NCBI RefSeq assembly: GCF_030817175.1 | Contig: NZ_JAUSYY010000001.1 | Span: 2,604,001-2,668,000, forward strand | DNA length: 64,000 bases | Direction of reading: 5' to 3' | Source: Agromyces ramosus | GTDB lineage: Bacteria > Actinomycetota > Actinomycetes > Actinomycetales > Microbacteriaceae | Shown: in pieces, positions 10,912 through 14,290 of the stretch | Numbering within the stretch: position 1 is the stretch's first letter | Layout: every line of letters begins with the position of its first letter | Notes under the pieces: model-generated | The model's input: the letters and a program-made list of their open reading frames with translations, nothing else | What the model was told of the DNA's origin: nothing | The model's database searches: none | Position numbers and translations under genes: made by a program

Positions 10912-10983
10912 GTGGCTTCACGGGCGGGCGCGTTCGCAGGAGATGCGCAGCCGCGCGGCATCCGACCGGGTCTACCGTCGAGT

Positions 10984-12150
10984 ATGGGCGATCGTCGAGA
11001 GGTCGCCGGCACGAGCGCGGCCGGTGCCGGCGCTGCACCGTGGCGGCCCATGCGACGTCGTCGCCAGGAGCCGCCGGCATGGACGGCAGCGCTCACCGAG
11101 GGTGAGGACGCCGGCTTCTTCGGTCCGGGCAGCGCCGCCTGGACCGTCAACGGGTCGATGCCCGCGCTCGTCGCCGGCATTCGGGCGCTGCTGCTGCAGA
11201 CGCTGCATCCGGGTGCGATGGCGGGGGTGCACGACTGGTCGAGCTACCGCGACGACCCCCTGCGGCGGCTCGACGGCACCGTGCGGTGGATCGCCACGAC
11301 GACGTTCGGCGACCGGCGCAGCGCCACCGAGGCATCCGCGTTCGTCTCGCGGTTGCACGAGCGGGTGACCGGCACGTACGTCGACGCGAACGGGGTCGAA
11401 CGCGAGTACGCGGCGAACGACGCGGAGCTGCTGCGCTGGGTGCACAACGCGTTCACCGAGGCGTTCCTCGGCGCGCACGAGGTCTGGGGCGGCCCGATCC
11501 CGGGCGGGCCCGATGCCTACGTGCGCGAATGGGCGCAGGCGGGGCGGCTCATGGGCGTGCAGGATCCGCCCACGACGGTCGACGCGCTGCACGCCGAGAT
11601 GGCCGCGTTCCTCGTCGAGGCGAAGCCCGATGAGCGCGTGACGGAGGCCATGGGCTTCCTGCGCAGACCCGGGCTGCCGGGCCTCACCGGGATGCTGTAC
11701 CCGATCCTGTTCGGCGGCGCCGTGGCATCCCTCGATCAGCACTCTCGCGAGCTGCTGGGGCTGCGGCGCCCCTGGTGGCCGGCGATCACGCCGACGCGGG
11801 TGCTGCTCGCTGCGGCTGGGCGCGTGTTCGGCCGGGTCTCGCCGAGCGAGCGCAATGCGCGTGCCCGCATCGCGGGGTTGCAGGGGTCGGCGAACGCCTC
11901 CGTCAAGCCATCGCGTCCGCCGGAGTCCGTCGATACGCTGAGCGAAACAACGGGAGGAGCTCGCATGAGCATTAACGATGACGACATCACCCTCGAGCCG
12001 GGTGACGACGGTGAAGGCGTCGCCGACGGCGGCGCCAACCCGAAGGGACACGACGGCGGCGCCGACGGCTCCGCCGCCGAGGGTGAGGGAGTCGCCGATG
12101 GCGGCGCCAACCCCGGTGGCCACGACGGCGGCGCCGACGGTTCGGCGTAA
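10984..12150 (+). CDS. DUF2236 (MpaB-like oxygenase) protein with in-frame repeat-peptide tail
   Basis: The DUF2236 domain covers about residues 40-300 of 388: 'GSMPALVAGIRALLLQTLHPGAMAGVHDWS' at its start and 'LLRWVHNAFTEAFLGAHEVWG' in the middle. The family contains the lariat-forming oxygenase MpaB and latex-clearing proteins and is thought to act in oxidative reactions. I chose the ATG at 10984 because TACCGT (10973-10978) lies 5 nt upstream, indicating a leaderless start; the frame is open back to a GTG at 10912. No stop codon separates it from the following small peptide gene, so the reading frame runs through the whole peptide. Either the enzyme carries the peptide as a tail, or the peptide is made separately from its own start at 11965. 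Confidence 0.75.
   Translation: MGDRREVAGTSAAGAGAAPWRPMRRRRQEPPAWTAALTEGEDAGFFGPGSAAWTVNGSMPALVAGIRALLLQTLHPGAMAGVHDWSSYRDDPLRRLDGTVRWIATTTFGDRRSATEASAFVSRLHERVTGTYVDANGVEREYAANDAELLRWVHNAFTEAFLGAHEVWGGPIPGGPDAYVREWAQAGRLMGVQDPPTTVDALHAEMAAFLVEAKPDERVTEAMGFLRRPGLPGLTGMLYPILFGGAVASLDQHSRELLGLRRPWWPAITPTRVLLAAAGRVFGRVSPSERNARARIAGLQGSANASVKPSRPPESVDTLSETTGGARMSINDDDITLEPGDDGEGVADGGANPKGHDGGADGSAAEGEGVADGGANPGGHDGGADGSA
11965..12150 (+). CDS. Gly/Asp-rich tandem-repeat peptide, candidate modification substrate
   Basis: A 61-residue acidic peptide. A 15-residue leader (MSINDDDITLEPGDD) precedes two 22-residue repeats (12010-12075 and 12082-12147) that differ at a single residue, Lys versus Gly. 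Each contains 'EGVADGGANP' and 'GHDGGADGSA'. A strong ribosome-binding site (GGAGG, 11953-11957) lies 7 nt before this ATG, favouring separate translation although the frame is also open from the DUF2236 gene. The stop overlaps the ATG of the JmjC/cupin gene (TAATG). It resembles short 'BatC'-labelled proteins I recall from related genomes. A repeated substrate-like sequence next to a hydroxylase suggests a modified peptide (inference). Confidence 0.65.
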   Translation: MSINDDDITLEPGDDGEGVADGGANPKGHDGGADGSAAEGEGVADGGANPGGHDGGADGSA

Positions 12151-13385
12151 TGAACAGCCCCGAGCGCGGGCCGATCGGTCGGCCCGCGCTCGCACGCTGC
12201 ATCCGGGTGCCGGCCGAGGAGTTCGGCGACCGGTACTGGGGTCGCGAGCCGCTCCTCTCCACGGCAGACGAGCTCGGGTCTGGTTTCGACGACCTGTTCT
12301 CGGCGACTGCCGTCGACGAGCTCGTCTCCCGGCGCGGGGTGCGCACTCCGTTCATCCGCATGGCGCAGGAGGGCGCGGTGCTGGCGGCATCCGCCTACAC
12401 CGCCTCGGGTGGGTTCGGCGCTGAGATCGCCGACCAGGTCTCGAGCGACAAGGTGCTCGCCGAATTCGCGGACGGTGCGACCATCGTGCTGCAGGGATTG
12501 CACCGGCTGTGGCCGCCGATCATCGACTTCACCCGGGCGCTCGTCGACGACCTCGGTCACCCGGCGCAGGTGAATGCCTACGTGACCCCGCCGTCGTCGC
12601 AGGGATTCGACCCCCACTACGACACCCACGACGTGTTCGTGCTGCAGATCTCGGGCGAGAAGCACTGGCGCATCCATCCGCCGGTGCTGGTCGACCCGCT
12701 CCGCACGCAGCCGTGGGACCAGCATCGCGCCGCCGTCGCCCGCAGGGCCACGCACGAGCCGGCCATCGACGCCGTGCTGCGGCCGGGCGATGCCCTGTAC
12801 CTGCCACGAGGTTGGATCCACTCCGCGACCGCCCTCGGCGAGACATCCGTGCACCTCACCGTCGGCATGTCGGCCTACACGCGTGCCGACCTCGTCGACG
12901 CGCTCATCGGCGAGGTCGGCGACAACGCCGCCCTGCGCACATCGTTGCCGCTCGGCGTCGACCTGCGCGACCCCGAGGCGCTGAAGCCGATCGTCGAGCA
13001 GACCGTGCAGGCGCTCATCGAGACACTGCAGCAGACGGATGCCTCGCGGCCGGCCGCCAGCCTCAGCGCCCGCTTCGACGCCGAGACGCGTGCAGAGCCG
13101 CTCGCTCCGCTCGCGACGCTCGAGGCGCTCGCAACACTCGACGCCTCCACCCCGGTGCGCTGGCGCGGGTCGCTGCCGGTGCGCATCGAGACGGTCGAAG
13201 ACCGCGTGCGCATCGTGGCCCGTGCCAAGACGCTCTCCCTGCCCGCCGAGGCGGAGGCGGCGGTGCGGCGGCTTGCAGCCGGCGACCCGGTGACGGTGGG
13301 GGAGCTGCCGGGAATCGACTCCGAGAGCGCGGTCGTCGTCGTGCGCAGGCTCGTGCGCGAGGGATTCGTGGTGGCGGCCGCGTGA
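12150..13385 (+). CDS. JmjC/cupin-4 family oxygenase (ribosomal-oxygenase-like)
   Basis: A 411-residue protein with the double-stranded beta-helix of Fe(II)/2-oxoglutarate hydroxylases. The iron triad is visible: His156 and Asp158 in 'DPHYDTHDVFVLQISGEKHW', and His224 in 'LPRGWIHSA'. The C-terminal half has a dimerisation and winged-helix-like region, as in YcfD/RoxA, MINA53 and NO66, which hydroxylate Arg or His residues of ribosomal proteins. Here the adjacent, translationally coupled repeat peptide is a plausible substrate (inference). The TAATG overlap upstream and GTGA overlap downstream fix it in a tight operon. Ribosomal protein modification remains the alternative. Confidence 0.85.
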   Translation: MNSPERGPIGRPALARCIRVPAEEFGDRYWGREPLLSTADELGSGFDDLFSATAVDELVSRRGVRTPFIRMAQEGAVLAASAYTASGGFGAEIADQVSSDKVLAEFADGATIVLQGLHRLWPPIIDFTRALVDDLGHPAQVNAYVTPPSSQGFDPHYDTHDVFVLQISGEKHWRIHPPVLVDPLRTQPWDQHRAAVARRATHEPAIDAVLRPGDALYLPRGWIHSATALGETSVHLTVGMSAYTRADLVDALIGEVGDNAALRTSLPLGVDLRDPEALKPIVEQTVQALIETLQQTDASRPAASLSARFDAETRAEPLAPLATLEALATLDASTPVRWRGSLPVRIETVEDRVRIVARAKTLSLPAEAEAAVRRLAAGDPVTVGELPGIDSESAVVVVRRLVREGFVVAAA

Positions 13386-14290
13386 CGCTGGTCGCCGAGC
13401 ACTGGGCACCGTGCAGCGATCGCGCCCGCGAGCGCGACGACCCGCTGGTCGGCACCGGTTCGCGCGGGCTGCGCTGGTTCCTCATCGAGGTCGCGGCGAG
13501 CTGGGGCCACAACGCGTTGCTCAGCGAGCCGTTCGACCGTGAGCTCGGGAGAGCCCTGATTCGGCGCATCGAGGGCGCCGGCATGCGCCCGCTCGTCATC
13601 CGTCGCACAGGTCGCCGCGTTGCTTCGGCGACGCAGCGGTGGGCGATCGTCGACTCGCGGCCGGGGCTCGAGAGCGTAGTCTGGGGCGAGGTGACGGATG
13701 CCTCGGAGCTCCTCGACGTGCCGCTCGACGGGTCGACCGGCGTGCCGTCGTCGCGGCCGGTCTACTGCGTGTGCACGCATGCCCGCCACGACCGATGCTG
13801 TGCCGTGCGCGGCCGTCGCGTCGTCACCGCGCTCGCCGAGGCGCATCCCCACGAGACGTGGGAGTGCTCGCACCTCGGCGGCGACCGCTTCGCCGGAACC
13901 ATGGTCGTGTTCCCGCACGGCCTCTACTACGGCTACGCCGACGACGGCGACCCGGTGCGCATCGCCGACGCCTTCGACGACGGCCGCGTCGTGCCCGAGC
14001 GATACCGCGGACGCAGCTCCCTGACGCATCCGGTGCAGGCGGCCCAGCACTACGCCCGCGAGCGGTTCGGCGACGACCGCATCGAGGCGTTCGCGCCCGT
14101 CGCCGAGGACGTCACCGAGACCGGTTGGCGCGTTCGCCTCGAGGGCGCCGGCGCGGGCGGCGAGGTCATCGCCGTGGAGCTCGAAGAAACCGAATCCGAG
14201 CCGCTGCTGTCGACCTGCGCCGCGACCCGGTTCGTGCGGGTGCGGCAGTACGCCCTCCGCTCGATCAGCGTCGAACGACCGAACGACTGA
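13382..14290 (+). CDS. Sucrase/ferredoxin-like protein (Suc_Fer family)
   Basis: A 302-residue thioredoxin-fold protein of the Suc_Fer-like family. It shows an N-terminal Cys-containing 'WAPCSDRARERDDPLVGT', the cluster-binding-like 'YCVCTHARHDRCCAVRGRRV', and 'WECSHLGGDRFAGTMVVFP', the family hallmark. Members are thought to bind a [2Fe-2S] cluster. The GTG start overlaps the stop of the JmjC gene (GTGA). The position suggests it supplies electrons to the oxygenases of the operon (inference). Its last 26 bp overlap the convergent NAD(P)-binding gene. Confidence 0.85.
   Translation: MTLVAEHWAPCSDRARERDDPLVGTGSRGLRWFLIEVAASWGHNALLSEPFDRELGRALIRRIEGAGMRPLVIRRTGRRVASATQRWAIVDSRPGLESVVWGEVTDASELLDVPLDGSTGVPSSRPVYCVCTHARHDRCCAVRGRRVVTALAEAHPHETWECSHLGGDRFAGTMVVFPHGLYYGYADDGDPVRIADAFDDGRVVPERYRGRSSLTHPVQAAQHYARERFGDDRIEAFAPVAEDVTETGWRVRLEGAGAGGEVIAVELEETESEPLLSTCAATRFVRVRQYALRSISVERPND

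Follow-up and report, generated by a model that had tools for sequence, protein, structure and literature searches.

We analysed a window of 64,000 nucleotides from Agromyces ramosus (contig NZ_JAUSYY010000001.1, positions 2,604,001 to 2,668,000), the term standing for the whole of that stretch, which carries a cassette of three plus-strand genes, overlapping by a few bases, for a repeat peptide, a JmjC_2 oxygenase and a Suc_Fer-like protein. The peptide open reading frame (ORF; 11965..12150, ATG at 11965 and TAA at 12150) encodes 61 residues rich in Asp and Gly, the predicted precursor or substrate, and is preceded by what reads as a strong Shine-Dalgarno-like sequence, GGGAGGAG (11952..11959). 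The peptide starts with MSINDDDIT, containing the short conserved leader S-I-N-D-D-D-I-T (11965..12000), and continues with two core units recognised in the translation and by a unit profile, EGVADGGANPKGHDGGADGSA (12013..12075) and EGVADGGANPGGHDGGADGSA (12085..12147). These units span residues 17-37 and 41-61 with a period of 24 amino acids, which agrees with an earlier note on this DNA that had described two near-identical repeats. The stop codon of the peptide and the start codon of the JmjC gene (12150..13385, 411 amino acids) overlap in TAATG, and the encoded protein (PF08007, E=1.9e-30) has H156, D158 and H224, so that the coupling and the intact HxD...H triad claimed in the same note are both borne out. 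Pfam, a structural model and a structure match give it a JmjC domain, a helical middle part and a C-terminal winged helix (residues 330-411, 13137..13382; defined by the model and by profile scores), which is proposed to bind the leader in the manner of a RiPP recognition element (RRE), RiPP standing for ribosomally synthesised and post-translationally modified peptide. The Suc_Fer-like gene (13382..14290; PF06999, E=7.7e-16), for a presumably accessory protein of the thioredoxin-like ferredoxin type, follows directly, as had been noted, its GTG start overlapping the JmjC stop.

Repeat peptides beside JmjC genes

To follow up the proposal that a short repeat ORF precedes JmjC homologues, we compared 102 loci with distinct JmjC sequences, consisting of 75 loci from a GTDB scan (the best 80 of at least 555 confirmed, less five duplicates), 26 fetched regions and the window, and found that this arrangement holds far beyond the window genome. 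An Asp/Gly-rich ORF lies 5' of the JmjC gene in 100 of the 102 loci; that of L051 is not a repeat, which leaves a repeat peptide in 99 loci, including two in which it is cut by the contig end (L066 and L116). The three loci without a counted repeat peptide are L051, L085 from Curtobacterium and L056, whose contig begins at the JmjC gene. L085 has kept both the JmjC and the Suc_Fer genes, and a repeat peptide was detected neither upstream nor in the rest of its 17 kb. A peptide score was fitted after the peptides had been seen and was applied where 400 or more bases lay upstream. It was passed in 97 of 99 JmjC loci, compared with 3 of 955 control genes from these loci; genes on the plus strand that lie 1.5 kb or less from JmjC were not used as controls.

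The JmjC protein was detected in 28 of the 100 relatives searched, including 17 of the 60 from Agromyces. Of these 60 genomes, 16 have tandem HDG[GA]ADG clusters, and each of the 16 is a JmjC carrier; no cluster is present in the 43 Agromyces genomes that have no JmjC match. In the 17th carrier (G044), Arg replaces two of three His and a single pattern match is found. Across the phylum, HDGGADG is matched in 40 of 396 genomes, with at least two matches close together in 11, and all 11 tandem clusters adjoin a JmjC gene. It should be noted that 35 of the 67 matches in these genomes are single ones outside the 11 clusters, and that the reversed pattern gives 4. As at RiPP loci, a small precursor gene is found beside a modifying enzyme and the two are conserved together. 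Since the repeat peptide is so widely coupled to the JmjC gene, a role as substrate is indicated, and we consider it very likely that the peptide is the substrate of the adjacent JmjC enzyme.

The canonical unit of these peptides is EG[PTV]ADGG[AS]NPxGHDGGADG. When a stretch was accepted on 11 or more likenesses out of 18, all positions being free, 244 units were found in 85 of 100 peptides, three units being present in 75 peptides, two in 6, one in 3 and four in 1, so that the two-unit window peptide is a minority form. Asp is kept at unit positions 5, 14 and 18 in 244, 240 and 244 of the 244 units, respectively; His is kept in 234 and Asn in 236, with Arg, Ala, Ser or Asn in place of His in a few units. 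The two window units differ at 9 of 57 bases (6.3 synonymous and 2.7 non-synonymous differences). Between units of one gene, pN/pS is 0.092 (237 pairs, 4 of them DNA-identical), a value lowered by the selection of units by likeness; for 506 orthologue pairs with >75% identity it is 0.20, and over all 718 equal-length pairs, taken unaligned, it is 0.36, the pairs not being independent of each other. The low within-gene value, with only 4 of 237 pairs identical in DNA, indicates that the likeness of the units is held at the protein level and not by recent duplication. A chance repeat is excluded by this constraint and by the contrast in the fitted peptide score.

No Cys occurs from residue 9 onward in any of 135 peptides. 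The window peptide had no match in NCBIfam and Pfam, nor had its relatives (four compared with NCBIfam, three with Pfam) except for one at E 2.8. Precursors that are short, repetitive, devoid of Cys and matched by no family model tried may for these reasons have been overlooked. No prior description of the peptide family or the cassette was found in the open-licence full text of PubMed Central (PMC), and the strings DGGADGG, GHDGGADG, HDGGADG and GGADGGADGG were absent from the part of it that was searched.

Further loci, beyond those in the 102 and in the outgroup described below, were taken from all 58 of the 396 genomes with a JmjC match at E 1e-30, one (L169) being dropped because its JmjC is identical to that of L112 and three (L200, L227 and L234) not being counted owing to contig ends. 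An Asp-rich peptide lies directly upstream of JmjC in all 44 assessable further loci (34 and 10), 36 of which belong outside the class Actinomycetes, where the JmjC proteins are 34-42% identical to that of the window (where measured). The leaders of this far set resemble LTDEDIETV, and the cores mostly consist of alternating Asp, as in DGDATDGTDGDA, of the DGDATDGTD type; they have no canonical unit yet keep Asp, and core His is mostly absent. Exceptions are L207, with two copies of PTEDDENLDAPGEHSQDTGDE, and L189, with DGTDQGV...GGTYGPRD repeats. The L189 peptide has several repeats of the DGxDQGxxGG...GPRD type and is the sole Tyr-containing peptide among the 135. The far-set peptide of L231 has a GAGDAAGDG-type core, unlike the DGDATD of its relatives, and no adjacent Suc_Fer was found there.

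Between the two core types, the short leader (like DDDIT) and Asp alone persist. A JmjC tree has two main groups, one holding the canonical-unit peptides and the other 25 of the 26 with alternating Asp, L053 being the exception; this tree was made by a quick method with support from the Shimodaira-Hasegawa-like approximate likelihood-ratio test (SH-aLRT) only, has several long branches and does not include the loci of the eleven genomes and three extra copies fetched last. Leader and core thus evolve differently, as in RiPP precursors, with like acidic leaders and unlike cores in the two enzyme groups.

As an outgroup we took 15 remoter JmjC loci (L205, L208-L215, L029, L220-L222, L235 and L236; 119-217 bits with the JmjC profile), and no Asp-repeat peptide was found at any of them, the lowest JmjC score with such a peptide being 221 bits (L202). 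Two outgroup loci, L210 and L213, have unlike ORFs of 45 residues directly 5' of JmjC with the common ending GRSDGND, perhaps forming another JmjC-peptide pair. At L219, on a Streptomyces clavuligerus plasmid, a distant JmjC (cupin) gene (255 bits, 33% identity) is directly preceded by a 48-residue Asp/Pro peptide (2260-2406) whose sequence includes SLEPDEIEVI, resembling a leader, as well as two short repeats; an S9 peptidase gene lies downstream. Because of the ORFs at L210, L213 and L219, the outgroup control is not clean and short upstream peptides may extend beyond the family.

The JmjC enzyme and its candidate target

The nearest solved relatives of the window JmjC protein are NO66 and MINA53. 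An AlphaFold model built with 20 sequences reached a mean pLDDT (predicted local distance difference test) of 90.3 and matched NO66 across most of its length with a TM (template modelling) score of 0.65, the best match to a solved structure, followed by MINA53 and YcfD. The predicted architecture is that of the ribosomal oxygenases (ROX/RIOX), i.e. a JmjC domain with HxD...H, a helical middle part and a winged helix, and the cassette enzyme would share its three-part fold and catalytic triad with these three proteins. By contrast, NO66, MINA53 and YcfD target His or Arg of ribosomal proteins, whereas the cassette enzyme has a repeat peptide encoded next door. In an alignment of 140 enzymes, three of which (L172, L200 and L205) were set aside, H156, D158, H224, K171, N142, Y144, H160, D161 and H235 are invariant in all 137 remaining sequences. 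Ser421 of NO66, which holds and pairs with the target His (PMC9994133), differs in that its position is occupied by Gly in 137 of 137 enzymes, NO66 residues being counted along a pairwise alignment; this feature of the NO66/MINA53 histidyl hydroxylases is therefore missing from the family.

Because Asp is kept across the units and in the far set and because the Ser421 position is always Gly, we lean towards Asp as the residue that is hydroxylated. If the enzyme instead acted as NO66 and MINA53 do, the target would be His (or Asn) within ANPxGHDGG. The kinship with these two proteins, the near-constancy of His and Asn in the units and the retention of NO66 Tyr328 as Y144 in all 137 enzymes speak for this alternative. 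It is nevertheless unlikely, since far-set peptides of the same enzyme family have no such unit and mostly no core His, some canonical units have other residues at the His position, and the Ser421 position is Gly throughout.

Another explanation would be that the peptide stays unmodified and, being acidic, binds the JmjC protein, inhibits it or supplies it with metal, the real JmjC substrate lying elsewhere, for example in a ribosomal protein. ROX relatives do act on ribosomal proteins (PMC6182338), and processing genes do not recur near the cassette. However, a variable core behind a constant leader, arranged in repeats, suits a substrate better than a regulator, and the patchy presence of the cassette within one genus (17 of 60 Agromyces genomes) makes a service to the ribosome improbable, so that we regard this explanation as quite unlikely.

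The earlier note had supposed that a peptide-specific JmjC enzyme would be new. This is true of the peptide family, as far as the literature search described above goes, but not of the principle: BipG, PbsQ and BpmG are JmjC enzymes that act on RiPP precursors (PMC12707348, PMC12257519). The biphenomycin-type clusters to which they belong resemble the cassette in that a JmjC/cupin-like 2-oxoglutarate oxygenase works on a ribosomal precursor. In these clusters, JmjC provides one tailoring step, on ornithine, among a MNIO (multinuclear non-heme iron-dependent oxidative enzyme), a B12-radical-SAM (S-adenosylmethionine) enzyme, an arginase and a protease, whereas in the present cassette no other modifying enzyme recurs with the peptide, whose core is made of Asp-rich repeats. 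Asp hydroxylation of a RiPP precursor by an oxygenase is described for SmaO/SmaX of a graspetide cluster, where beta-hydroxylation is followed by formation of aminomalonate (PMC13097080); this graspetide system is set beside the cassette by description alone and not by enzyme family. Taken on its sequence features, the cassette suggests that there is a family of oxidised ribosomal peptides yet to be characterised. It also offers a dedicated short substrate candidate for a large branch of bacterial JmjC ribosomal oxygenases.

The winged helix and the leader

A loose leader motif is found in 125 of the 135 peptides. The ten without a match are two fragments at contig ends, L117, whose leader appears after correction of its start, and seven peptides that lack the motif; gene starts were assigned by script and some are wrong (L077, L117 and L194). 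Winged-helix and catalytic profiles were trained on 102 alignment rows, none of them from far-set or degenerate enzymes. In the far set (28 enzymes), the winged helix scores 31.7-70 bits despite remote catalytic domains (median 153 bits), whereas seven enzymes (L048-L052, L176 and L178) have winged helices of -0.1 to 23.9 bits next to catalytic domains of 281-310 bits. These seven enzymes are exactly those whose peptides have no leader motif, every other scored enzyme with a peptide having a winged helix of at least 31.7 bits. The losses in this leaderless clade fall on residues 389-390 (7 and 6 of 7) and on Glu404 (7 of 7). As winged helix and leader have decayed jointly in one clade, the winged helix may bind the leader, a role that we hold to be more probable than not.

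RREs are defined by a beta3-alpha3 order (PMC12710340). In the model of the window protein, strands at 345-349, 352-356 and 361-365 and helices at 366-376, 383-385 (three residues only) and 391-403 give roughly this predicted order, with an extra strand on each side; Pfam gave no match for residues 330-411. RRE-like folds fused to PF08007 JmjC domains, the combination proposed here, were reported in 2025 from fish and algae, with one sentence on bacterial homologues in RiPP-like contexts (PMC12710340); the section of that paper on RRE-JmjC proteins mentions neither a precursor family or core nor a partner gene or a co-loss of leader and winged helix. The function of the winged helix in ROX enzymes has been called unclear (PMC6182338), and this question becomes directly testable as binding, or not, of a leader of about nine residues.

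Taken together, we find it reasonably probable that the locus is a RiPP-like cassette and that its ROX-type JmjC enzyme hydroxylates the core aspartates of the repeat precursor. The precursor would have a leader, short and acidic, followed by a core of Asp-rich repeats, and the modifying enzyme would be a ROX-type Fe(II)/2-oxoglutarate JmjC oxygenase. The C-terminal winged helix of this enzyme would grip the leader while the active site moves along the core, hydroxylating Asp side chains repeat by repeat, probably at the beta carbon. If so, a class with Asp repeats and a single enzyme joins the RiPPs.

Several observations weigh against this proposal. The enzyme is present without a repeat peptide in two loci (L085 and L051), and in the Actinomycetes clade His or Asn may still be the target. 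The seven leaderless loci group together in a single clade (SH-aLRT 99), so that the co-loss counts as one event; L205, with a winged helix of 6.3 bits and no peptide found, may be a second co-loss but sits on a long branch. Moreover, the leader motif was loosened after its first version had missed L135, L188, L194, L195 and L198, and L048, one of the seven leaderless loci, keeps a remnant, NDDDTM. Finally, over the roughly 8 kb compared, as far as the contigs reach, there is no gene for a protease, exporter, immunity factor, transporter or storage protein that recurs at a fixed position. Given the lack of the first three, nothing indicates a secreted RiPP of the classical kind, although a leader protease or exporter is not obligatory in every RiPP class.

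Suc_Fer and the neighbouring genes

The Suc_Fer gene lies downstream in 87 of the 102 loci. Among the 15 loci without it, the sequence stops no further than about 210 bases from JmjC in three (L055, L119 and L129) and about 1.25 kb from it in one (L106). In the further scan it was found in 33 of 38 cassette loci (L191 being a fragment, and L172 and L179 repeating loci of the 102), in 8 of 10 assessable loci of the set fetched last, and in none of nine outgroup loci. Three cassette carriers (G299, G371 and G372) have no PF06999 match genome-wide at E 0.001, which marks Suc_Fer as accessory; in two others (G093 and G209) a PF06999 match lies elsewhere in the genome. The partnership suggested by the earlier note is thus common but dispensable. 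C131, C140 and H164 are present in 87 of 87 cassette Suc_Fer proteins, with Asp at the fourth ligand position in 86 of 87 according to the alignment; by pattern, HxGGD replaces HxGGH (window residues 164-168) in 83 of 86. A Suc_Fer copy outside the cassette, L218, likewise has HxGGD. The ligand motif of thioredoxin-like ferredoxins is CX8C...HX3H (PMC8482512), and the cassette proteins share CX8C and the later His with the Aim32/Apd1 ferredoxins (PF06999) whereas their last ligand position is Asp instead of His. These conserved residues would fit a thioredoxin-like ferredoxin with Asp as the fourth ligand.

In the mechanism proposed above, Suc_Fer would be an accessory redox protein, perhaps holding iron in the reduced state. 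Both this role and any biological function of the cassette are put forward weakly. As beta-hydroxy-Asp is reported to occur in Fe(III) siderophores, metal handling is our leading guess at a function: the product may be a hydroxy-Asp-rich peptide that binds iron or calcium and either remains intracellular or leaves through general machinery, its bound iron being reduced by Suc_Fer. This is a refinement of the Asp-hydroxylation proposal and not an exclusive alternative to it. The regular spacing of Asp, the absence of Cys from the cores and the predicted [2Fe-2S] protein that usually adjoins agree with such a product, which is attractive but putative. Against it, transport and storage genes do not recur, some carriers have no Suc_Fer and an IdeR/DtxR-like box is not enriched: scored against an IdeR/DtxR consensus, the best sites in 98 upstream regions had 8-11 mismatches of 19 compared to 6-11 in one shuffle of each. 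We therefore hold metal binding as a tentative possibility. The wider proposition that ribosomal polyhydroxyaspartyl peptides occur phylum-wide and serve as metal ligands, their maturation requiring just one ROX-type JmjC enzyme with a winged helix that acts as an RRE and binds the leader, is somewhat more doubtful; were it true, the winged helix of human ribosomal oxygenases would gain an ancestral role in grasping peptide substrates.

Neighbouring genes were compared all against all after GC3 filtering (G+C content at third codon positions). JmjC and Suc_Fer are the only genes that recur at a fixed position beside the peptide, two other recurring gene clusters (11 and 9 loci) being found at scattered positions. 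The absence of a recurring protease or transporter, together with the patchy presence within a genus, suggests an accessory trait. A defence system was also considered, and PADLOC gave no match for the three cassette proteins.

Upstream of the window cassette, outside it, lies a gene of the DUF2236/MPAB_Lcp oxygenase family (10984..11964, plus strand; MPAB_Lcp_cat, E=2.1e-44), which the earlier note had counted as a partner. We reject this as a chance neighbour: a homologue abuts the cassette in the window genome alone among the 102 loci, and in one other Agromyces, L039, it lies 4.2 kb away. In the window, the DUF2236 frame reaches the peptide without a stop codon, forming a single ORF (10912-12150), and the two could be fused in this genome alone. 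That such a fusion, an oxygenase with a repeat tail, is the functional form is, however, extremely improbable: the adjacency is confined to this genome, the peptide is equipped with a start codon and a Shine-Dalgarno-like sequence of its own, and the L039 homologue has a stop codon at about the place where the window frame continues.

Mobile carriage of the cassette was set aside, the window peptide having no match at E 1 in plasmid or phage collections; JmjC relatives on plasmids are at most 33% identical among the best 20 listed. L221 and L222, on Streptomyces plasmids, each have two neighbouring cupin/JmjC genes; in L221 one of the two adjoins a carbamoyltransferase gene, with peptidase genes on the flanks. 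A block resembling GATACGCT is present upstream in several Agromyces loci.

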